Below are positions 28,401 through 63,206 of a DNA stretch of 64,000 bases, piece by piece. Under the pieces are notes generated by a model, which was not told the DNA's origin, ran no database searches, and worked only from the letters and a program-made list of their open reading frames with translations. The translations under genes were made by a program, and so were the position numbers. Each line of letters begins with the position of its first letter. The stretch's first letter is position 1. This DNA is from Arbacia lixula. Taxonomy: Eukaryota > Echinodermata > Echinoidea > Arbacioida > Arbaciidae. The stretch is from assembly GCA_963669155.1 (NCBI GenBank), contig OZ022581.1:25628197-25692196 (forward strand), written 5' to 3'.

Positions 28401-31400
28401 GTGTAGGCAGCCTCCTGGCTGTCGTCTTGCTCCACACAGTGGTTGACCAGTCCGATTCTGGCCGCCTCCTGCCCGTCTACCACACGTCCAGTGAACATGA
28501 GCTCCTTAGCGATGGCTGGACCAACCAAACGTGGTAGCCTCTGGGTGCCACCTAGATAATAGAAGTGAAGGATGGATAGTGCAGGTTACCACATAGTAGT
28601 ATTTCATCAGACATAATAATTTCTTGTGGTTGACCAGTGTGATTCTGGCCACCTCTATAGCAGGGGGAAAATAGATATTTGCCAGGGCTACTTTACAAGC
28701 TTTATGCTACGAAACAAACACCCTGCAATGGTTTTGACAATTTTTTTATAGGGAAAACTATCTTACCACAGGGTATCTTCTGTGCATTGTAGAATGAAAC
28801 CTACATTTTCCAACAACAACAAAATAAACAACACACAGGATTTCTTTAAAGATGGAAGGTACAGTCCTTACAACTTGGAAAAAACCTTTCAAAATTTGGT
28901 TCATATGGACAGTACAGCTCAAATAAAACACAACACCCTACACAGCAAATGGAACAGCCCCTACATAGTTTACACTATGAATGAACTAACGATTGACAAG
29001 TTGTTCTTTGTCTATGTTCATTTTCCCTTAACATAAATCATGATTTTATGCCTTGTGGTATAGACTAAGGCTCCCCTCAAAAGCCACCTAGTATGTTTGG
29101 ACTAAAGGCTCCCCTATATAAGACTAGATTTGTTGTACTAATGAGTGATGTTTCAAGCATACATACCTCCTCCAGGGATTATAGCAAGCTTGGTCTCCAC
29201 AAGGCCCATCTTGGCAGATGAAGCTGCATATGCAAGTCAAACACAAAGACATGTACACATCATCATACAGTGCCATGGTGTCTCCAAAGAGACATACCCT
29301 AAAGGAACCTTAAAACCTTGTCATGTCAAGGAATACAGAATGTATATTTCAAATTCCAAAATCCGCAGCAAATACATTTCAAATCAATTTATCTCTTGCA
29401 CGAGAGCGTGTTACTTTCATACAAAAGAAATGGATAATTTGTAAAACTGAAAAGAATTTTGATTGAAGTATACATTGACTGAAACTGCAAGTGATATATC
29501 ATCGTCACAGGTAAATTATGTAATAAAAAAAAATATGTCCAGTCATTTGAATATATCAAAATTGTAACAAAACTACCATTACAGATGTTTCTCAATATAT
29601 ATAAGATTGGCTTTGGCAAAAAAAAAAAAAAAATGAAAACAAATTTGAAAAAACAAACTTAAAAGTTATAAGCATTGCCACTCCATGTACTACCTACGTT
29701 TAGTTCAATCACTATCACATATCTGAATTATTAAATTTCAACAATACTCACATCAGTCTATTTAGTTGTATGCTCTTTCAATATATAACATGTTAAACAC
29801 ACACTCAGATGATATAACTATTACAAAAACAATAAAAAAATCAAGTAAATCTTTGAAGATTTGTGCTTGACATGAATCAAGATAAATATGGTACACCAAA
29901 GAACAATAACAATGAAGTCAGTTAAATGAGAAGTAAGTGACAGTAATTCACAAGAAAATAAGACATAATGATGATGATCTTGTCAGAAGTAATTTAGAAA
30001 CACCTTGCACATTTCCAGACACCAAGACTGCTAATAAAGAAAAAATGGAGATGGAATTTCAACTAACCAAAAGCAAAGTAAGCCACAATTATCATAACTT
30101 GATGTTAATGACATACATACAGGTGAAGCACTATAATAAACTTCATTTGGTACAAGTTCTATAAACAAGCAAAGGCTGCAGAAGTACGGAGGATTGGTAA
30201 AAAACTTTGTTCAAAGGGCACTACAAGGTTTCCTCTAAATACTACAGGACAGCAATGAAGTTTTCAAAATGTGAAGAGCAATGAATGAGGGTAAATTATG
30301 AAAAGCACAATCTTCAAAGGGTAAAAGAAAAGGAGATGTATTTCAAAAGAACAGTGAGTAAAGAGACAGCAAAGCAAAGGTTATTGGTTAGTTACAAGGA
30401 AAGGCAGCAGGCAAACAGGAACATGTCCTCCCAATTAATCATGACCTCACCAGCTACCCTCATGTCACATGACAAGGCCATCTCTAGGCCACCGCCCACG
30501 GCAACACCATCTAGGGCCGCTAGCGTCGGCATGGCGAGGTTACCCAACTCAAGAATCATCATCCGCAACTTAGCGACAAATGGTCCCACTTCTTCCAGCG
30601 GCATTTTTAACCTTTCTTTCAAGTCAGCTCCTACAAAAATGATAGAAAAGTGAGTTTGGAAGAATGAATGTTAGCGATAGAAATATGTGACTCACAAGCG
30701 ATTCTGATGTCACAGCTGAGCGCCATCTCAAGACCTCCCCCAACCGCAGTGCCATCGAGAGCCACAATGGTTGGGCAGGGAAGGCCCCCCAGGTCTTGGA
30801 TCAGCTGCCTGCCTCGGCTGACAAAGGGCCCCACCTCTTCTGCCTTCATCGTCACACGCTCCTTCAAGTCCGCACCTACGTGGACATTTACATGCTGAAA
30901 GCTTAGAGCACTGGAAGGCCAAATAAAGTATTAATTTATTCAGTCTTTTATATACAGGGTAGCCCCATCAGAAAAATTGAAATGTTTTCCCTGGGAGCCC
31001 CTGTATACAAATAACACAATACCATACATAATGACATGAACATACATAATACAAAATAGTGCTAATCAAAAGGCTATAAACTGTAAGGCAACAAAGATCA
31101 ACTGATGAAAAACTTTGTTTTACACAAATGTAGGAGAATCAATGCTTCCACATGCATCAAACAAGTGAAACTTGGAAACTATGACATCATAATATATTGA
31201 TAACGGCATTTTTATGGTAGTGAGGCTGCACACGGAAGACAATTTAATGCCTACATTTATAATTTAAAGTAGAAACCCTTTATCTCCATTTCAAATGTAT
31301 AAGGGACACATTTCATTTAAGAGCAACTTTTTAATGAATATAACTTAATGTAACTATCGATTTCTGAATCATGGAAATAGCCAAGGAACTCACAGCATGG

Positions 31401-50216: not shown

Positions 50217-50273
<57 letters not shown>

Positions 50274-50798
50274 TGAAAAAAATGTATGAAGAGAACATTG
50301 GTAGGCGTAGCTTAAATCAAGGCTCCCCAGAGCTATCTACCCTTTGGAAAAATTGGTGATGCCGAAAAAATGTCTCGAACCCGGGCCCCCAGCTTTGAAC
50401 GCCGGTGCCTTAACCACTAGACCACAGATAATTTCTTACATTGATATATACTTTCTCCCGTACGTGTACTGCATCAAAGTAATAGCTTTGATCCAGCTGA
50501 GGCATGGCAGCTTGTCATTGTTCAAAACCCACCTGCACCCAACAAAGGAAATTATAATTGGTATAGTGTCGAGAATTTGTCAATCTGACGGTCAATCGGA
50601 TCGGGGTTGCCTGCGCCACTAACCCGTCTCTGTGGTCTAGTGGTTAAGGCACCGGCGTTCAAAGCTGGGGGCCCGGGTTTGATTCCCGGCAGAGACATTT
50701 TTTCGGCATCACCAATTTTTCCAAAGGGTAGATAGCTCTGGGGAACCTTGATTTAAGCTACGCCTACCATTGTTCTCTTCATACATTTTTTTCACAAA

Positions 50799-50840
<42 letters not shown>
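50217..50840. mobile_element. Inverted pair of tRNA-derived SINEs flanked by (TA)n
   Basis: The right unit (plus sense) begins with a tRNA-like head at 50626-50696, then a body ending TCATACATTTTTTTCACAAA and a (TA)n tail (50804-50840). The left unit is the same sequence in minus sense, from about 50429 down to its (TA)n tail (50219-50270). Its head lacks about 11 nt around the 3' half of the T arm (box B) that the right copy retains. The roughly 190-bp spacer between the two heads is unique. tRNA head, body and simple-repeat tail define a tRNA-SINE; the two heads face each other, making a large inverted repeat. Confidence 0.75.
50626..50696 (+). repeat. tRNA-like head of SINE, anticodon position UCA
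   Basis: 71 nt folds as a full cloverleaf: acceptor GTCTCTG/CAGAGAC (7 bp), D arm with TGGTCTAGTGGTTAAG, anticodon stem CCGGC/GCTGG around a GTTCAAA loop, and T arm CCGGG/CCCGG around TTTGATT. The loop places UCA in the anticodon. Box A and box B resemble tRNA-Glu-type sequence. It is called a SINE head because the same sequence occurs in inverted copy nearby with a shared body and tail. A functional tRNA is unlikely but not excluded. Confidence 0.65.
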
Positions 50841-50902: not shown

Positions 50903-51104
50903 GACTGTCACCATGCCGAACCTTATCAAGCTTACGTTGGTTGGGGATTCGGATGTCGGCAAGACCTGTTTGAGTGCTGTGTACACTACCAAAAAATTTC
51001 CTGCGGACCATTATGGTTGTCCCACACTCCAAGATTTCTACAAAACTGATGTTGCTTTGAATGGCATACCGTATAGATGGTGTATATTCGCCACAAATGG
51101 ACAG
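50903..51104 (+). CDS. RhoBTB alternative first coding exon 1a
   Basis: Acceptor ...tttcttacag, leader GACTGTCACC, then ATG at 50913; donor gtttgt after CAG, phase 0, 64 codons. It encodes the intact P-loop GDSDVGKT, a switch I-like stretch GCPTLQDFY with the Thr, and ATNGQ in place of DTAGQ. It therefore keeps nucleotide-binding Lys and Thr but has an altered catalytic motif. Confidence 0.88.
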
Positions 51105-54052
51105 GTTTGTGATTGGTTTGTTATTTTGCCGCTGCTGTGTCAGTCACTTGAGAACACAATAGGCTCTTTTGCCTTTCACAAATAAAATAGGCAAGATACC
51201 ACAGAGAATGTAGGAAAACCTCCTTCACTTAACTAGAACTGGAAACTGATATGCAGAATCCTATTCGAATTAGATTTCGAGTTGAGTTTTAAACGGGGTC
51301 ATTTAAAAGTGAGCGGTTCCTTTAGCCTATTGTGACTGGATACCACAAAAGCACACATCGTGGCTCTCATCTGCAAAAGCTCCGCAGTAAAGCCTTCAGG
51401 TGAGCAGTGCATCACTGTTCAGGGCAAAATTTAGATTTTTTTTTTTTTTTTTAGATTTTTTTTTTTTTTTAGATTTTTATAAATCCTTTCTTACAGGACT
51501 GTCACCATGCCAAACTTTATCAAGCTTACGTTGGTTGGGGATTCGGATGTCGGTAGGAGCTATTTGGGTATGGCGCATATCATCAAAAGATTTCCTTCTG
51601 ACGGGTTTGATCCCAGAGGCTACGTCTACTTTGCCAGTGAATTTGTGATGAATGGCACACCATATAAATTGCGCATATGTGAAACAGATAGCGAGGTTTG
51701 TGATTGATATGATTTTTATTTTGTAGCCATTGTCTGTAACTCTTTAAATGTAATGAATATGAATTTTAATTATAATTTAATCATGCTTTTGATAGACTTG
51801 TGTCTTTGTTTTATTGCTGAGATATTCCCCCATTAATTTCCAGACCTGAGCCCCATTACATAAAAATTACCTTAATGGTAACTCAGCCATAAATGGGAAC
51901 TTCTATGGAGACCTTGAATTTGATTGGCTGTCGAGTGGTATTACCATGGTAGTTGCCATTGATGACAGACTTACCATTAATGGTAAGTTTTATGCAATGG
52001 GGCCCTGGACTACCAGAGCTTCATTTGGCAAATTTTGTAAAAAATTTCATTTCAGTCATCCTGAATTAAATTACCGATATACCTTTCCATTCTTATGTAC
52101 CATCAAAAGGCCCATTTCAGGTCAAACAATTAAATAAATGTGCAAATCCACTTTCCCCAGATGACTTCATTCATTTTAGATGCGTTTGAAGTAAAGGTCC
52201 ATTTTCTCCAAAAAGCATTTTGATATTGATATCCTATATTGAAATGTGTATTCTGTATTCATATAATTTATGTTTCCTTTTGTCTCCTCTGCTTCCAGAC
52301 ACACATTAACGCTATTCGCCATTGTGTCTACCGGAGGTCCCACGTCTTCCTCCTGTGTTATAGCGTGGATAATCCCATCTCTCTTGAAAACATTAGCGAC
52401 AAATGGTACCCAGACGTCACGCACCGCATGCCAAATACTCCTGTAGTGATAGTGGCAACAAAAATAGGTAACTAGACGATCATTTACATACATACACTAC
52501 AGCTCAAAGGAATTAGCATAGGGAAAGGGAAAGGAAAGAAAGGGAAGGAGCAGCAGTTTTAAACCATGGTATATTTTGTCCAATTCATCATGAAACCCGA
52601 TGCTTGAGCCTAAAAAGCATTGTGTTTCATGCTGAACTGGACAAAATATACCGCGGTTTAAAACTGCGGCTCCTTCCCCTTCTTCCCTTTCCCTTTCCCT
52701 ATGCCAATTTGTTTGAGCTGGAGTGTACCACATGTGATTCTAATAATCATTATGAGACAAGAGTTTTAGCAACAAAATTAATTGTGTGATGTAATCAAGG
52801 CAGTGTCTAAACAAGTTTTTGACATGGTGAATTTCCACCAAATGATACTTTTTTGTACCACCATTCAATATTTCAATGGCAATTTTCTGACAAAAGTAAA
52901 ATCGTGTTGCGCCCAATTTTACTATGTTGGTGCAATTAAAATGAATGTTTAACAGAATGTTTATGGTTAAGATATTAGTTAGGTTTGGGATTTTAGTCAT
53001 GTATTCTCAGTCTCATAGCCACCCTTCAATTTCTTGAAGAAGTTGAAAGGTTGGATTGTTTGTGCTAATACTTGGAAGTGGAGATAAATAACCCTCTTAA
53101 AATGTGCACTTCATCTTTCCAGATCTGCGTGGCTCTTCTAATACTCCCTATGTGACATGGGAGGAAGGGTATAGGGTAGCCCAATCCTTAAACTGCAGCT
53201 ATTTTGAGACAAGCTCCCTCATGATGATAGGTCTTAAGGAGTGCTTTGAACAGGCAGTAAGTGAACATTCAAGCCATCACTGATCAATATGTCTGACATG
53301 ATCCTATAATACCAGTATGTTCACATTCATGCCATCACTGATTAATGTGTATTGTATGTTTACAAAGATGCAATTTCTTTGTAAATTGAAATTACCCAAG
53401 AAAGCCCTTTCACTAAAATCTAAGATGCAATAAGTTATATATAAATCTTCCTTGTACATTAGTTGTCATTATGTTTCCATAAAGCCCTTTCACTAAAATC
53501 TAAGATGCAATAAGTTATATATAAATCTTCCTTGTACATTAGTTGTCATTATGTTTCCATAAAGGGAGGTGTATTACGTCTGATCTATGTCTAAAATCCA
53601 TTGTCTTTTTAATCTATAATTTGTATGCATCCTGGTTCCTCACTAACAACTGGGCTTGTCATATATGTGAAATGGTCCATTTTGCACGCTAGAGGTGAAA
53701 AGTCAGTCTCTGCTGAAATTGCATCTGACTCCTCTGAACGCCCTATATTGGGGGGGGGGGGAGGGGAGGGGAGATGTCAAAAAATGTAATTTTTATTAAA
53801 GTTTGCCATGAATGAGATGGTTATTCCTGTATGATAGCACACAGTTCATATTTGAATGTAACATTCACTCTCTTGTTTCTTACAGCTGCAGCTTGCTGTT
53901 GACTGCTCAATAGAAAGAAAAGCACAAGAAGTTCATGAGTCTGGCACGGGCAAGAAGACTATTCCCGACTGTCCAGTAATGCCTCTTGCCAGTGAGTGTT
54001 TCAACCACCCCTCTCAACCTCACACACACACACACACGCACACACACACACA

Positions 54053-54111
<59 letters not shown>

Positions 54112-54127
54112 ACACACACACATACAT

Positions 54128-54163
<36 letters not shown>

Positions 54164-54209
54164 ACACAAAAACACACATACACACACACACACACACACG
54201 CACACACAC

Positions 54210-54254
<45 letters not shown>

Positions 54255-54672
54255 GATCTTTATTCTGATTCCTTAATAATACAAATTAAATTCATATAAT
54301 CAGTTCAAATATATTAACACAAATTAAACAAAACCACCATGCAACTTATATATATATGCATTTGTAAGTACAAATTAATTACAATAAAATAGCTGAAAAT
54401 ATAAAATATAATTACTCAATTGTTATAATCATGTAACGATGTTTAATCAAATAAACTGAACGAATAGCTTCCGGAATCAAGTTTTAAATAAACAAGTCCA
54501 CTAATCCCCCAACCTATAATACACCCCTAAAATTAGTCCTAACCATTCCTAACCCCCATCTGGACAGCCACCCCCTAACACCAACCCCACCATATATAAA
54601 AGGCGACCCCCTCCCCCTCCCCTTCCCCTCCCCCTCCCGACACCCTCATGTCCGGTACACACACACATACAT

Positions 54673-54710
<38 letters not shown>

Positions 54711-57700
54711 ACACAAAAACACACACACACACACACACACACACGCACCCGCAAACACACATACTTCCTTTTCCCCCCATTTTGTATTGACATGGAATTA
54801 AATGAATGAATTCAAGGGTATGATAAAACTTTTTACAGCTTTTAAAACAGAGCTTTTTCTAGCTAGAAAATATATTTTAAGCCTGTAGTAAGCATACAAT
54901 TGGATTCCTTAGCTGACAGAGCCACAATAAATATTTTGATTGCATGGATTTCATGAACTCAATGCTGTCATTGAAACAAGTTTACATATGATATGTTTTA
55001 AATGCTCAATTGGACAAAATAATTTGATTTGGAAAAATGAAATTCCAGTTTCTGGCGTATTTCTATGGAATGCTTGAATTACTTGTAAAATTGGAATATA
55101 TTTTATGAGCTTTTGGATTTTTGGTCATTCATCTATGCCGATTGATATCAGTCTGCCTTTAAAGGTAATCACAACTTCCATGAATGGCCATGAATTTTAG
55201 CTTTATTGGCCTTATTCAAAGTTAACTTGCTGTGTCAAATTTACTCAAGATTTCAATCAAGGGTGTGAAACCCCCACAGACTTATGACAGTTAAAGTTCC
55301 ATGTGAAAAAAGAAACATGCACCTTAATGTTATGTTAGCGCTGTTTGAGATTTCAAAACGGTTAAGATCTTGCTGTTTGTTCTCTACCAGGCCTGGCTCC
55401 ATGGATTGAGATCAAGACATCCACAATGGGCCGAGACATGGGCGGTATCCTTGCCGACACCTCTGAGGCTGACGTGGTCTTCCACCTGGACGATGGCAAG
55501 ACTCACTCCGCCCACAGGGTCATGCTTTGCAGCGCCTCTGACTTCTTCTGCAGGGTCTTTGAGCAGAAACTACCAAAGGTATGCTAAGCATTAATAATTG
55601 TGCTAGTCCTACATGTAGTTTTTAGGCTCAAACACATATCAATGGGTGTCTCGACAGAAACTAACAAAGGTGTGCTGAGCCTGATGATACATATAGTTTG
55701 CCAGGTGCGGCCAGCGAACCTTTTCTGAATGAATTAATATTTTGCAAACCTAGCAGCCGAAAGGAATTGGCAAGACAATGAAATGATAACTTATGTACAT
55801 TCATTTATTCCATAGTTTCAAAAATGAAGTGAATGAATAAAAGTTACTACTGGTGTCTTTCTAGGTTCAGCAAGAAGACCCAGATATACCTGTGTCTGAC
55901 TTCACCTGGGAAGAGATCAACAGTGGCAGTATAGCTGGTCTGTCTAGTATCGCTCAGGCTGGAGAGGGAGCTGACCACAAGGTGGACATCTGTCTGGCTG
56001 CAGAGGTCCAGTCGCTTGCCTTTCAACATGTCCTAGAGTTCCTCTATGGAGGTCAGTGCGAGTCATCTTCATGTTAATGTGGCATATAGCTCTGCAGTGA
56101 TGGTCACATATTCTTGCTAAGGAAAGAAAAGGTAGACTGTAACAGCAAGTTTTGTCATCAGAATAATACACGTAGTCCCATGCTTTTCCATTATATAATA
56201 GACTAAGTGGTTTGAATTTTCAACTCCTTTTTTAGACAAACACATCAAATATTTGTCTGTAAAGGTTGATCATACCTCACTCCAGTCCAAATATTAAAGC
56301 AATGGAGTTGAAATGAAATCAAACATTTTTAAATCTTATTAAATCCCACTGAATCATGTCAGGGCTGCCCAATGTGGATGAGGACTCTCCAGAACAGGAG
56401 CTGAATGACCTGAAGGAAGTGGCAGATATCTTCCAGCTGACGAGGCTGAGAGAGGTCGTGGAGAACATCCAGAAGAGGGAGGATTTCCTCAATCCCAGCA
56501 TCGGTGCTGACCTCAATGACCTCATGGGTCAAAGGCTGAAAGAGCTTTTCTTCAACAAGCCACTGTTTTCAGACACCCAGTTTGAAGTGGAAGGTAGATA
56601 TTTCTCATGATCCCTCAAGGCCTAAGTGCTGTATGCATGACATCTGATAGAGAACAATATAAGATTCAAGGATGCCTTGTTTAATTCAGCTCCTTTTCCA
56701 TGATATTATAGCCATTTTTCATTGCGAAAGAATTAGGCCAACTCTTTTTGAGGAATAGTTACATCCGTCCTTATGTGTTTGTTATACATGGATGAAACAT
56801 GCCCACCATTATTGCACTATGACAATTTACATTTATTATATTTTGTACTCTGGCCTTGTATATAATTGTTATTGTCTTCATTATAGCGATTACACACAAG
56901 TTATGTTTAAATTATGATGTGCAAGGCACTGAGATGTGGCACTGTTCATCCACAGTAGATCATATAATGGGAACAGAAGACTTAAAGAGAAAGTTGTTGA
57001 GGAAGACTGTGTATGAAATACATAGAGCTGTTCATTTTCAGCAGAAGTATCAGTGCTGACTGGTTAGAATTGTACCAGTCAGCACTGGTACAATTTGTAC
57101 CAAATAAGAAGAGGAAAGAAAAGGAAGAGCCATCAAATTGTTATGATCATCACTTCTCATAAGTTTCTATTACATACCCATGTTTCTTTTATCAACATGT
57201 TTTCCCTTGGAAGGCGAGACTGTCTACGCCCACAGACCTATTCTGAAGGCCAGGAGCACTGTCCTAGCAAGCATGTTCAGCGGGGTGTTCACAGAAAGCT
57301 TCGTACAAAAGGTGAGCAAAAAGGTGAATTTTCCCTCAGATTCATCTTCTTGTAGTCCTAAATAAGGGACATATCATTACTAAGTAGTAGGAGGGGGAGA
57401 GAAATAAGGTGTCTGGGGATATGCCACTTACCGGTAATGGTTTCGTCACTATAGACATATTCCAACTGAATATGTTTTGGCTCAAATCCGTATAAATTGG
57501 TCTTATCCAAACTATGTGATGACCTCCTTTTCTCTGAATTGTTATTTGAGTTTTAGTTGTCATAGCAACTGTATGATTGGACTGCATATGAAAATTATTT
57601 TCCCTCTGTTTTTCAATCAAAAGGAATTGCTGGATTATGCCAAAGTACTTTGCATGCATGTTTGGGGGATTAACAGTCGAGCCCAGACTAATATACTCAT

Positions 57701-58626
57701 ATACGTTCATACTGAAACACTACACAGTCCTTGGTCAAGCCTTCCTGCCCATTCTTGAAGACCAATTCCAAGGTATACACACTGACAGTCAGGCCTGGCC
57801 CAAGCCTAGCATCTGTTAGGGGGTATCATGAAAGGGTTATACGGTACCTAACATGGAATGATATCTTGTCGATATCACTTGTGAGAGGCCTTAGCCCACA
57901 AGGTCTAATGATATAATATATTGATTTGTCCATCCCCAGATCCCGATCCGAGAAACAAGTCGGGAGTGCTTCCTGGCGATCCTGGAGTACCTGTACACAG
58001 ATTGCGCCCCCATAGAGGATGGGGATGTGATAGGGATCCTGATCACAGCTGAGCGCTTCGCCCTGGACAGACTCAAGAATCTCTGTGAGCACTACATTAT
58101 TAAGGAGGTGGATGTCAGCGTTAGTCCGTGCATCAAGAAGGCTGACATCGATGTGATTGGACTGCTGCACACTGCACAGGTAGATTGCAGAATGAAGCTT
58201 TCAGTGAAGTTACAACTTGTAAACAAGCACTCGTTATGAAGGCTGGTCTTTTTCGATAAACTCTCAAACAGCACATCACTCTCTCATGCCAATGTTGCGA
58301 TTGTTCAATATAAAATTTCTGGTGACCACCCTGAAGCCTTCTTTGTTCTGCTCGTCTGGTGAAGCAATTAACACTATTCTCACTTTGCCCTTCTGTCCAT
58401 CCCTCCCTCTGTCCAGTTCCACCAAGCCGACCAGCTGGCCGCCTGGTGCCTGCACTTCATCTCCTCTAACTACCTGGCCTTTGAGAAGCGGGCAGAGTTC
58501 TCCCAGCTGGAGGGTGACAACCTGGCCCATGTCACCGAGAAGCGCTGGCCGCCTGTCTCCTACATGAATGAGAGTGCCGAGTGGGAGAAGAAGTATGGCA
58601 AGAAGAAGAGTTGCATGGTCATGTGA
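50913..58626 (+). CDS. RhoBTB-family protein (Rho GTPase-like plus two BTB domains, CAAX end)
   Basis: Coding exons: 1a 50913-51104 (or 1b 51507-51695), 52299-52467, 53123-53256, 53886-53991, 55391-55578, 55865-56051, 56363-56593, 57214-57311, 57940-58179, 58417-58626. All phases agree, giving 584 residues with 1a (583 with 1b). Residues 1-165 are a Rho-type fold: P-loop GDSDVGKT, then [32 protein letters not shown] and ETSSL. Residues about 220-340 form BTB1, split by an insertion as in RhoBTBs ([15 protein letters not shown] ... LEFLYGG). BTB2 (about 385-490) has [18 protein letters not shown] and ILEYLYTD. The end is [12 protein letters not shown], a polybasic stretch plus CAAX-like motif. 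The DTAGQ motif is degenerate (ATNGQ). RhoBTBs act as Cul3 ubiquitin-ligase adaptors, so a trafficking/degradation scaffold is inferred; I do not assign RHOBTB1/2 versus 3. An upstream 5' UTR exon is implied by the acceptors. Confidence 0.9.
51437..51477 (+). promoter_or_regulatory. U-rich tract upstream of RhoBTB exon 1b
   Basis: Two T runs of 18 and 14 separated by AGA, followed by AGATTTTTATAAATCCTTTC and the acceptor at 51495-51496. Such an extended polypyrimidine tract could bind U2AF, PTB or similar factors and influence choice of exon 1b; function is inferred only. Confidence 0.4.
51497..51695 (+). CDS. RhoBTB alternative first coding exon 1b, degenerate P-loop
   Basis: A tandem duplicate of 1a with the same acceptor, the same GACTGTCACC leader, ATG at 51507, and the same GTTTGTGATTG after the donor; 63 codons, phase 0. 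It encodes [18 protein letters not shown], so the P-loop Lys is Arg. The switch I Thr region is replaced (GYVYFASEF) and DTAGQ by ETDSE. If spliced to exon 2 it would make a protein unlikely to bind nucleotide normally. A U-rich tract (51437-51477) precedes its acceptor. Confidence 0.8.
51850..52010. mobile_element. Short MITE in RhoBTB intron 1
   Basis: Ends GCCCCATTACATAAAAATTA and TTTTATGCAATGGGGC are inverted, with ACCTTAATGGTAA and TTACCATTAATGGTAA just inside. It shares CCATGG-centred words (TACCATGGTA, TTGCCATTGATG) with the element near 61559-61665, suggesting a related family. Confidence 0.6.
52493..52727. mobile_element. Palindromic MITE family A, copy 4, in RhoBTB intron 2
   Basis: Ends TACACTACAGCTCAAAGGAA and TTTGTTTGAGCTGGAGTGTA; internal palindrome as in copies 1 and 3. 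It starts 25 nt after the exon 2 donor. Confidence 0.75.
53401..53560. repeat. 80-bp tandem duplication in RhoBTB intron 3
   Basis: AAAGCCCTTTCACTAAAATC through ATGTTTCCAT (53401-53480) is repeated with no visible change at 53481-53560. A recent local duplication. Confidence 0.85.
53700..53835. repeat. Dispersed repeat, copy 2
   Basis: Matches 34595-34735 in ordered blocks (CTCCTCTGAACGCCCT, a G run, ATGTC, ATTAAAG, GGTTATTCCTGT). Located in RhoBTB intron 3, just before exon 4. Confidence 0.55.
54020..54211. repeat. (CA)n microsatellite in RhoBTB intron 4
   Basis: About 190 bp of (CA)n with rare interruptions (CATACATAAACA, CACAAAAACA). Long open frames on both strands here are low-complexity artefacts. 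A second (CA)n block with the same interruptions lies at about 54655-54745. Confidence 0.85.
54212..54654 (-). mobile_element. Retroposed 3' end inserted in (CA)n
   Basis: A 40-bp T run (54212-54251) is followed by AATGATCTTTATTCTGATTC: on the minus strand this reads AATAAA, 10 nt, then poly(A), as in an mRNA or retrotransposon 3' end. The AT-rich body (about 54252-54500) and a C-rich part (54500-54654) follow. Both sides are (CA)n blocks sharing TACATAAACACAC and ACACACAAAAACAC, as if the target had been duplicated on insertion. The source is unknown. Confidence 0.6.
57051..57087. repeat. Perfect 14-bp hairpin
   Basis: CAGTGCTGACTGGT and ACCAGTCAGCACTG pair around a 9-nt loop, in RhoBTB intron 7. 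The core CAGTGCTGAC also forms the hairpin in the MITE at 15752-15922. Confidence 0.65.
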
Positions 58627-60310
58627 TCTGGCATCCCAAATCCCACCGAAGCTGAAAGACTGCCTGTATTTGAGCTGAGAATTGTTTAAAGAGTTATCCA
58701 GAGCTTCCTAATGATAAACCTCACGCACATGACATATAACAGAATGCTGCCTCTGATTTTATTGGCAATATACTGGCACATTATTTTAGTGTGACGCTTT
58801 AAAGACAGCCAGTCCCTTTTTCAGATCACCACAAAACCGTCGAAACATTGGCAAAACATATAGAGAAGTGTCAGCAAGCTCTATATTCACAATTTGAAAC
58901 TGATACGCAGTGTAAAATTCAAATAATGCACGTAAACAACGTCTGATTAATAGTCTTTACCTCAGGCTCTTAGCAGCTTGTGTTGAAATATCTGCTTTAT
59001 TGATTAATCTGTTAATTAAATTATAAAACGCATTATGAAAAAAATTGTTCTTCAGAAGGAATCATCTCCAAAGTTTGGTAGTTACTCATAAAATTAGGAT
59101 TTCACACACGCATAATAACCACATAGATACTGTAACAAAGACTAATACTTTTTTCGTGGTACGAAAAAAGTCGGTTTGAAATTTAACGGCTGAAATCTTT
59201 TACATATACAAAAAGCTTCAACATGCTATATTCTTAGAAATGGTCGTGAATCACACTTTCTTCAATTTACGATCGTGATAGATGATTTCAAATTTTAAGC
59301 TTGCAAAAGGGACTGACAATCTTTAATACTCACATGTAAAATGTGTTTATGTTATACTGCAATATTTTATAAATGTATGTAAAGGTGCAATTTATACCAT
59401 CTACCTGGGCATTTTTGTATTTCGTAATATGTATTTGTTATGGTGTATTATGTTTATACAAGAAAAATGTTGTATATATTGTTGATTGTAACATCTCAAT
59501 GCAATATCTGTGTTGCAATTTATACCTGTTACCAGGGTATTTTTGTATATTTTATATTTTCATATTTGTTTTGGTGTACTATATTTGTATTACCAAAATT
59601 TTGATGTTTATATTGTTTGATACTAACATTTCAATGCAATCTCTCTTTTTTTTAAACTATGATGTTTTATGTGTCATAAAATCACAACATTTCAAATAAC
59701 TTTGCATCACTTGGTATTTTACATGAAACATGTTGCTCCTGATTGTAGACAAGGAATCATATTTTTTTATATTTTGTAATCAATTATTGTGTGAAAAGAA
59801 AAATGTGCAAACATTGCAACTGAGCCCATTCTTGCTTGTCACATGAACATACTTTAAATTGTTATCGTTCATTACACCTATCCCCCAAATCACAGTAGAT
59901 TAGTATATTATTTGAGCTTCCCTTTGTATTAAAAATTAGTTTTCTATTAGTGAACTGATATGAAGTTTGGATTGACCAAAAAAGTTATGAAACAAAATGA
60001 CTTGAACAAATCTACAAGGAAAATTAGTACATGTATATGAGAATATAACATGTTTATAACTAGTTCTTTTGTGTATGATTTGCAGCAGGTGGTTGATTTC
60101 AGGTATTACTTCAAATTTGGTAAAGGAGAAAATATGTCTTGCATTTGTTCAAACTTTTACCAATCTGTGTCATGATTTATCTGTTTTTACTTAATCAACT
60201 CATTATCAGGGTTTCCTTCCCCTTTGATGAGAAATGAGATAGATGCTTCAACATGAAGACAGAAGGAATTCTGTAACTGGCAGCATATAACGTTGAAGAT
60301 GGATATTTCA
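58627..60310. other. RhoBTB 3' UTR and flank
   Basis: AT-rich sequence following the stop, with no further gene. A duplicated-looking stretch with TGCAATTTATACC lies near 59385 and 59513. The poly(A) site is not established; AATAAA at 60692-60697 is one candidate. Confidence 0.4.
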
Positions 60311-60672
60311 AACACCACTATTTAAAAGGGAATTGCAGTGCTAATTTGTGTGTGAGTGTACACAATTCAATTTCAATACAACTTAATTGTTTGTCCATTG
60401 CTAGTATTTCAAATTGAAATGCTGATCAAACTTTGAAAGTATCTTTCTTTGATCTTCATTTATTTTAGCAATTACAAAAGAGGAAATGGAAAACACCACT
60501 ATTTAAAAGGGAATTGCAGTGCTAATTTGTGTGTGAGTGTACACAATTCAATTTCAATACAACTTAATTGTTTGTCCATTGCTAGTATTTCAAATTGAAA
60601 TGCTGAGCAAACTTTGAAAGTATCTTTCTTTGATCTTCATTTATTTTAGCAATTACAAAAGAGGAAATGGAA
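60311..60672. repeat. 181-bp tandem duplication
   Basis: AACACCACTATTTAAAAGGG through GAGGAAATGGAA (60311-60491) is repeated at 60492-60672, with about one difference seen (GATCAAAC versus GAGCAAAC). A very recent duplication. Confidence 0.88.
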
Positions 60673-61558
60673 AATGAATGTTTGTGAATGAAATAAAAGC
60701 AGATAATAGAGGGTAAATGTGTTATAATGATATACAGCAACGATTGTACAAAGATACATCAATTCGAAAGTAATAATGTGTGTGACATATGGGGAAATGT
60801 AAATACTCGCTATGTTACAATCTCTTGCCACCTCCATAGTTCGTTGTTGTACTGCTGTTGGTATTGTAGAACTTTGTTTAATTTGTGCTTTTTTCACATG
60901 ATGTTGACTTATGACAATCACCAAGGATGGTCTAAATAATAGACTGACTAACGTTATCTTATTTAACTCTTAACTCAACAGGGTAGCCCTTCTGCAGGTC
61001 AATGTAGTAAGATTTTGTGAAGAGACACAGACAATTTAGGAAAATACTGTTAAGATTTTCTCTCTAATAATACAACTGGAAACTGACTTAAAGCGGAATT
61101 ACTGTATAACGATCGCTAGATTTGGAAGATTTGGTTTGTGAGGCTATGACTGATATTTCATACATGCTATCATTGGGGTATACTGCTGATTTCTGACGAG
61201 TTTCATGACTTTTGCAAATGGGGTGCCCTGTCTTTTATGTGTCATTAATACATTTTTGCACAAAAAAAAACACTTCAATGTGTCTGCTGAGCTTCCTTCT
61301 GAAACAAACTTTCACTGTCTTAAAATTTATACTTATTAACGTGAAATTGAAAAAGAAATATATATTTTCCTATGTAGTTTTATATGGAATTATAGAAACT
61401 GATTAAATATATAAATAAGAGATCTGTGGAGTAATGTTTTTTTTTTTTGCCTGTACTGTGGTATTTCATAATGTATGCAACATATTTCATAATGCACCAT
61501 TGTATTGAAATTAATGTGTGAACTGCTTTGAGAAGTAACAGATAAATGCGTATATCAG
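60673..61558. other. Intergenic, no gene seen
   Basis: AT-rich sequence between RhoBTB and the next repeat. Nothing recognised. Confidence 0.4.
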
Positions 61559-62414: not shown

Positions 62415-63206
62415 ATGCCGTGGGAGGAGTCGCGGCCAAGGATCTTGCTCGGGAGAGGCGTCATGGGGGAGGTGTTCCTTGTTCCGCCATCGCCTTACAA
62501 AGACCCCTGTCGCCCTCAAGATCGTAGGGTTACCATCCGTGGGCTTTGAGAATGAAGTCTGCATCCACCGAGCTCTTGGCTGACTTCCTTGGTTCCCCGC
62601 CTTCTATGGCACCTTCAACATGGCCGGAGAATGAGCCCTGGCTATGGAGTTTATAGGGGTGAGGCTGATGACAAGAGGTTCACTATCGGCGATTGCATTG
62701 ACAACAATGGTCCTGTCATAACCAGAGACGATTGATTCGATAACCTGAACGATACTGCCATGGGACTCAAAGCTGCACACACCGCTGGATATTTGGTCAA
62801 TGATTTGAAAGAGGACAATACCATGCTTACGAACAGCTCGGACATTTGGCACGCCAAAATAATCGACTTTGGGTGGGCATCGGCTATCAATGACTCCTTC
62901 ATGACTCCTCTCGATGAGGAACAGATTGAGGGGTATAAGCGGAAGGAGATGGGACATCATATTGCCCCCGAGTGCGTCCTGGAGGGTAAGCCATTCTTAA
63001 CATCCAGTGATGTCTTCTCCCTCGGACGCCTGGTGGCGCTGATCGGCCAGGAGATGAAGTATGACGACTTCCTCTCCTACGGCATGGAGATTCTCCTGGC
63101 CGATCAGCAGGACAGGCCATCAGTCGATCAGGTCATGCACGCCCTATACCACCTCCAACTGGTTGAGGGCGGGGAGGACGGCCGTGGGTCGTCCTGCTGC
63201 TATTAA
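62415..63206 (+). pseudogene. Intronless protein-kinase pseudogene
   Basis: Kinase motifs occur in order but in different frames. The first frame has the glycine loop LLGRGVMGEVFLV; the next TPVALKIVG (ATP-binding Lys) and FENEVCIHRAL (helix C Glu), then ALAMEFIG; the last the catalytic loop VNDLKEDNTML, IIDFGWA, HIAPEC and SDVFSLGRL, ending in SSCCY and TAA. Two frameshifts (near 62498 and 62660) and three in-frame TGA stops interrupt it. The HRD His is Val. The NDLKEDN and DFGWA forms resemble an unusual kinase family that I believe is expanded in marine invertebrates; this is from memory. No introns plus an A-rich tract at 63598-63619 suggest a retropseudogene. The second, uninterrupted half (62760-63206) might still be open by chance. 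Confidence 0.75.

Follow-up and report, generated by a model that had tools for sequence, protein, structure and literature searches.

The window, i.e., the whole stretch of 64,000 nucleotides that was analyzed, carries on its plus strand, at 50903-58626, a gene that has two candidates for its first coding exon (1a and 1b) and nine more coding exons (Table 1). The gene model is complete, with ten coding exons per isoform, GT-AG introns and a stop at 58626. In this model, exon 1a joined to exons 2-10 yields 584 residues and exon 1b joined to exons 2-10 yields 583 residues, both stop-free, and both first exons join exon 2 in phase 0, as an earlier note on this DNA had stated. In a transcript with both 1a and 1b, the leader shifts the frame, and translation would end within exon 1b at a stop after 83 residues; such a transcript would be an expected target of nonsense-mediated decay.

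Table 1. Coding exons of the RacA-type RhoBTB gene and the intron between its two candidate first coding exons
Feature	Positions	Strand	Description
Exon 1a	50903-51104	+	10-nt leader, ATG at 50913, 64 codons, ending FATNGQ
Intron 1a-1b	51105-51496	+	392 nt; T-rich repeat array ahead of the 1b acceptor
Exon 1b	51497-51695	+	10-nt leader, ATG at 51507, 63 codons, ending CETDSE
Exon 2	52299-52467	+	Common to both isoforms; rewritten switch II; TKI of the G4 motif TKID
Exon 3	53123-53256	+	End of the G domain; G5 region ETSSL
Exon 4	53886-53991	+	Linker; possible remnant of a proline-rich stretch (compared by eye with relatives)
Exon 5	55391-55578	+	Start of the first BTB domain (placed by eye); 79-83% identity to the three echinoid relatives
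Exon 6	55865-56051	+	First BTB domain (placed by eye)
Exon 7	56363-56593	+	End of the first BTB region, start of the second BTB; residues 326-402
Exon 8	57214-57311	+	Second BTB domain
Exon 9	57940-58179	+	Second BTB domain and start of the BACK match
Exon 10	58417-58626	+	C-terminal region, ending KKKSCMVM (CaaX-like), then stop

A RhoBTB gene of the RacA type

The earlier note had read this gene as a RhoBTB, and domains, relatives and phylogeny agree with that identity; more precisely, the gene is a RhoBTB of the RacA type and is nearest to echinoid racA-like proteins. Both isoforms matched Pfam Ras, BTB (in two stretches) and BACK. The Ras match reached 111.5 bits (E 3.8e-32) with exon 1a vs. 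89.3 bits (E 2.7e-25) with exon 1b. Each of the two tandem BTB stretches passed alone (E 4.3e-34), the best-scoring stretch spanning residues 388-490, and the BACK match (E 3.4e-5; 24.3 bits, cut-off 20.9) covered only positions 1-48 of 103. Among solved structures, Rac1 was the top match for both isoforms. In the available excerpts of two reviews (PMC8305917, PMC4931677), RhoBTB proteins are described as a G domain followed by a proline-rich stretch, two BTB domains and a BACK-like end, and Dictyostelium RacA is described as RhoBTB-like.

A protein search yielded 53 homologues, drawn from the 7998 candidates sharing most words and clustered at 90%. The best of these 53 were the 'rho-related protein racA-like' of Lytechinus variegatus (64%), 'racA' of Strongylocentrotus purpuratus (62%) and 'racA-like' of Diadema antillarum (61%), with 99-100% of the query covered; starfish, molluscs, lancelets and dictyostelids came next among the homologues. 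In a tree of the body that follows the G domain, built from the window gene and 18 of 26 chosen relatives (eight were dropped, as the motif used for cutting did not match), the window gene joined the three echinoids at 99/99, with branches of 0.27 for the window gene and 0.16 for Diadema. Judged by the closest relatives of this gene, the source DNA is animal, and echinoid or near one.

In the window gene, as in the echinoid racA-like proteins, a Rac-like G domain is followed by a linker, which may hold a PVMP stretch, then by the two BTB domains and a BACK-like C-terminus, and a CaaX-like end is common to the window gene and all three echinoid proteins. The linker reads PLPPVMPS in Lytechinus and PVPPAMPP in Strongylocentrotus, and the window gene keeps what may be a remnant of this proline-rich stretch. 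Whereas the three echinoid proteins carry GDGAVGKS or GDGGVGKS, PTVFDNY and DTAGQEDYDRLRPLSYP, the window gene has diverged in its G domain and possesses two first coding exons. Dictyostelium RacA differs from the window gene in having no CaaX motif, according to the excerpt of one review (PMC8305917). The human proteins RHOBTB1, RHOBTB2 and RHOBTB3 resemble the window gene in combining a Rho domain with tandem BTB domains and a BACK-like end; five of the relatives found (P0047, P0048, P0050-P0052), judged RHOBTB1/2-like by their G-domain insert and in one case so named, are 709-743 amino acids long and 28-31% identical over 44-96% of the query.

Switch I and the DTAGQ site are altered not only in the window gene and its first exons, but also in starfish racA-like paralogues (Patiria, Acanthaster), among which P0009 has Arg at the position of Thr35 (residue numbers follow Rac1). 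Unlike the window gene, the starfish proteins that include the region (P0004, P0007-P0010, P0025 and P0046) retain Lys16 and Asp57, and the six starfish paralogues tested in the body tree clustered with starfish, not with the window gene. Echinoderm racA genes seem prone to reshaping of the G domain.

In the Patiria and Acanthaster proteins P0004, P0007-P0010 and P0025, the second half of the G domain is, by eye, apparently repeated before the BTB domains. The sponge Oscarella lobularis has a racA-like protein (P0036) that is 40% identical over 99% of the query, which contrasts with the statement, in the available part of a review, that no members of RhoBTB had been identified in the genomes of sponges (PMC8305917).

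Exons 1a and 1b and their G-domain motifs

Exons 1a and 1b share 26 identical nt that run from the acceptor (AAATCCTTTCTTACAG) to the end of the leader (GACTGTCACC); ATGCC directly follows the leader in both exons, and the donor GTTTGTGATTG is found at both. The acceptor, leader, ATG context and donor flank that the earlier note had described as shared are therefore confirmed in the sequence, with coordinates exact to the base. The alignment of the two exons comprises 271 columns with 72% identity (blastn E 4e-44), an E value that rules out a resemblance by chance, and the coding parts differ at 57 of 189 aligned bases and by one whole codon. In a tree of the two exons and 19 relatives, whose bootstrap had not settled and in which 1b forms a long branch, 1a and 1b were sisters (89/95), with branches of 1.33 for 1b vs. 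0.21 for 1a.

Within the window, tblastn searches with the two exons and five relatives found neither a third exon 1 nor a second copy of the gene; the best other match covered 19 residues (E 0.018), and exons 2-10 were found once. Among the relatives listed, no 1b-like exon was found, but isoforms with no difference outside exon 1 would be masked by the clustering at 90%. A search restricted to residues 1-120 of the 1b isoform (69 candidates) gave one weak match, to a mussel protein judged RHOBTB1-like, and counts as a weak negative. As in mutually exclusive pairs, 1a and 1b are homologous neighbours of equal phase, each of which keeps the frame, and their joint inclusion is unproductive. The 392-nt intron that separates them is by itself no bar to joint inclusion.

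The two exons differ at the residues that define the front half of the G domain. Exon 1a keeps Lys16, Thr17, Thr35, Gly60 and Gln61 and has Ala in place of Asp57, whereas in exon 1b Lys16 is replaced by Arg, Thr35 by Arg, Asp57 by Glu, Gly60 by Ser and Gln61 by Glu. Gly12 is Ser in both exons, as it is in 6 of 47 relatives. Among the relatives with a residue at the respective site (52 of the 53 were tabulated, the short P0053 being left out), position 16 is Lys in 47/47, position 57 is Asp in 49/49 and position 35 is Thr in 40/47. In terms of motifs, the G1 pattern GxxxxGK[ST] is present in 1a (GDSDVGKT, with Ser at Gly12) and absent from 1b (GDSDVGRS), the G2 switch I Thr is missing in 1b (Arg at Thr35) and the G3 pattern DxxG is missing in both 1a (ATNG) and 1b (ETDS). 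The shared exons keep TKID and SSL, and TKID, which spans the junction of exons 2 and 3, supplies the G4 pattern [NT]KxD in both isoforms; exon 2, common to the two isoforms, encodes a rewritten switch II at the place where EDYDRLRPLSYP stands in the three echinoid relatives.

The contrast drawn in the earlier note between GDSDVGKT in 1a and GDSDVGRS in 1b, with a switch I Thr in 1a only, is borne out by these data (C-P-T vs. D-P-R). Its claim that 1b has lost the DTAGQ-like motif is correct for 1b, which reads ETDSE, but 1a is abnormal here as well (ATNGQ, with Ala at the Asp position). In both exons the encoded GTPase front half is incomplete, and a clean GTPase/pseudo-GTPase pair is ruled out, as 1a is without Asp57 and the shared switch II is lost. 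The proposal of a pair that switches a GTPase on and off consequently holds only in part: 1b is without the P-loop Lys and the switch I Thr, but in 1a Asp57 is replaced by Ala and Gly12 by Ser, and the rewritten switch II is shared.

Since the P-loop Lys, the switch I Thr and the base-recognition motifs are present, the 1a isoform probably binds nucleotide; it is probably impaired for hydrolysis. The 1b isoform is probably a nucleotide-blind pseudo-GTPase. The available part of a 2026 review (PMC13236570) describes the Rac1 K16R mutant, which has the same change as 1b, as deficient in GTP loading, and names the Rnd proteins and RhoH among atypical GTPases that have no Gly at the G12-equivalent position. 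Because of D57A in 1a, the Gly12 to Ser replacement and the changed shared switch II, the GTPase cycle is likely impaired in both isoforms. The codon for residue 57 is GCC (Ala) in 1a and GAA (Glu) in 1b, and because each of these is one base off an Asp codon, the ancestor of 1a and 1b probably still had Asp57, which would have been lost separately in each copy.

Use, decay or redirection of the duplicated exon

Taking the sequence as the guide, we consider it slightly more probable than its contrary that 1a and 1b are mutually exclusive exons, which would give a RacA-type RhoBTB with a tandem-duplicated first coding exon either a hydrolysis-impaired or a probably nucleotide-blind G domain. 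The first coding exon of the gene was duplicated in tandem, and 1a and 1b would be spliced mutually exclusively after a putative upstream 5' UTR exon. The 1a isoform would hold nucleotide, with G12S, D57A and the changed switch II impairing hydrolysis and regulator contacts, and the 1b isoform (G12S, K16R, T35R, D57E, G60S, Q61E) would be a nucleotide-blind pseudo-GTPase. The choice of exon would alter the G-domain state while leaving the double-BTB body the same, and its likeliest effect would be a change in GTPase-BTB autoinhibition or in partner binding, not the turning on and off of a working GTPase. An autoinhibition model proposed for RhoBTB has the GTPase domain contact the first BTB within the same molecule (PMC4931677, as excerpted). 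A further-reaching version, in which splicing and not GEF/GAP cycling would set the state of the G domain, with a Cul3-adaptor-type gene choosing between a nucleotide-loaded, hydrolysis-impaired and a nucleotide-free G domain whose essential residues were lost separately after duplication, appears unlikely.

The closest precedent found is that of KRAS exons 4A and 4B, which, in the available part of one paper (PMC9882654), are homologous tandem exons of a small GTPase gene that are used mutually exclusively. The KRAS exons vary the C-terminal membrane-targeting region, whereas 1a and 1b hold the P-loop and switch I. Among the papers listed in literature searches on RhoBTB/RacA, echinoderms, exon duplication and splicing, no description of a tandem first-exon arrangement like that of 1a and 1b was found. 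If both isoforms are made, they would represent a natural matched RhoBTB pair whose members differ in the N-terminal 63-64 residues (strand 1 to the DTAGQ site) and nowhere else, and the role of nucleotide binding in RhoBTB could be addressed on an unchanged BTB body; splicing would then stand in for the GTPase cycle.

It is rather unlikely that 1b is a decaying, unused duplicate, that only the 1a protein is made and that the lost motif residues represent neutral drift, although several observations fit such a history. More change has accumulated on 1b, as is evident from its long branch in the exon-1 tree and from the assignment of 44 of the 57 substitutions to 1b with a consensus-guided ancestor (ties assigned to 1a), the overall dN/dS between 1a and 1b is about 0.8 and near neutral past the P-loop, and the absence of a 1b-like exon among the relatives listed (clustered at 90%) points in the same direction. 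However, 1b keeps an open frame, ATG, leader, acceptor and donor, its sole length change is one whole codon, and nonsynonymous changes between 1a and 1b are few in codons 1-17 (about 2 of 39 sites) vs. 41 of 110 later (Fisher p 6e-5). Purifying selection acting in both copies on strand 1 and the P-loop would account for this unevenness; since synonymous change does not differ significantly between codons 1-17 and later codons (p 0.16), gene conversion could be the source of the 5' similarity of 1a and 1b. In drift simulations, for which indel rates, substitution numbers and uniform mutation were assumed, the frame remained intact in 9-33% of runs without indels, as decay would allow, but in only 0.2-5% of runs at 28-57 substitutions when each substitution was accompanied by 0.08 indels of a kind able to break the frame, and in 0-2% when this rate was 0.125.

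Comparison of 1b with drifted copies gave less uniform results. Starting from a consensus-guided proxy for the ancestor, 13% of drifted copies were open with an ATG, and 115 of 2000 open drifted copies were as G-domain-like as 1b, vs. 3 of 2000 when drift started from 1a itself (the exon-1 profile comprised 42 of 52 relatives and left out five partial models and five RHOBTB1/2-like rows). The excess of 1b over drift varies with the ancestor assumed, since drift from three random ancestors equalled or beat 1b in 24, 75 and 759 per 1000 copies. Exon 1a itself is not above drift from the proxy (644 of 2000, with 13 substitutions) and the test therefore has low power over short distances. Support for 1b being under constraint, and not a dead exon, is of moderate strength and in part mixed, and the prospect that 1b is put to functional use appears somewhat better than even. 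The joining of haplotypes can create tandem copies, and the pair could in this way be an assembly or haplotype artefact that places two alleles in tandem; with 57 of 189 coding bases different, far above allelic variation, and with exons 2-10 present once in the window, this origin is highly improbable.

Mutually exclusive use of 1a and 1b would also be part of another reading, in which the whole G domain is a non-enzymatic interaction module, exon choice varies its binding surface and both isoforms are pseudo-GTPases. We regard this reading as possible, with the balance leaning against it; it overlaps with the explanation preferred above, as both exons are used in each, and the odds given to the readings do not sum to one. 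Its support includes the uneven pace of the gene. Over exons 1a, 2 and 3, identity is 51% (82/162) between the window gene and Lytechinus vs. 71% (116/163) between Lytechinus and Diadema, while over exons 5-10 the respective values are 73% (280/384) vs. 76% (295/389), the linker exon 4 being left out of these sums. By this measure, the BTB exons evolve at an ordinary echinoid pace and the G-domain exons evolve faster. With a BTB body that evolves at roughly the usual pace, the gene does not resemble a pseudogene, and its G domain looks released or redirected. In a tree of exons 2 and 3, which gives no placement of the window gene, the branch of the window gene is 0.83 vs. 0.24 for Diadema, but other relatives have long branches here, too (Amphiura 0.71, Anneissia 0.57, Oscarella 0.51). 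The loss of Asp57 in both exons and of switch II in the shared exon would also suit an interaction module, as would the location of the largest differences between 1a and 1b, in switch I and strands 2-3. By contrast, the conservation of Lys16, Thr17, Thr35, Gly60 and Gln61 in 1a, together with the shared TKID and SSL, would be odd if nucleotide binding were irrelevant.

Other features of the window

Just upstream of exon 1a, the segments 50228-50428 and 50629-50840 are inverted copies with 98% complementarity, each consisting of a tRNA-like repeat and flanking AT repeats; ARAGORN reported a tRNA-SeC at 50626-50697, in one arm of this inverted tRNA-like repeat. A scan for bacterial-type promoters upstream of the gene found 16 vs. 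17.8 expected, and is uninformative here. Two tandem duplications, at 53401-53564 (80 bases, 100% match) in intron 3 and at 60310-60674 (181 bases, 99%) downstream of the stop codon, look recent. Further downstream, at 62736-63203 on the plus strand, lies an uninterrupted frame of 156 residues with a partial match to protein kinases (Pkinase, E 1.1e-10), which is possibly a retrocopy or pseudogene.

A second pair of tandem exons was observed on the minus strand at 30451-30875, in a gene resembling that for methylglutaconyl-CoA hydratase (AUH). The two exons of this pair (30875-30696 and 30630-30451) are each 180 nt long, have the same phase, lie 65 nt apart and are identical at 109 of 180 bases, and they match the solved AUH structure (1hzd) about equally well (E 1.5e-20 and 8.3e-21). 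The short intron between equal, homologous exons suggests that these AUH-like exons also form a mutually exclusive pair.
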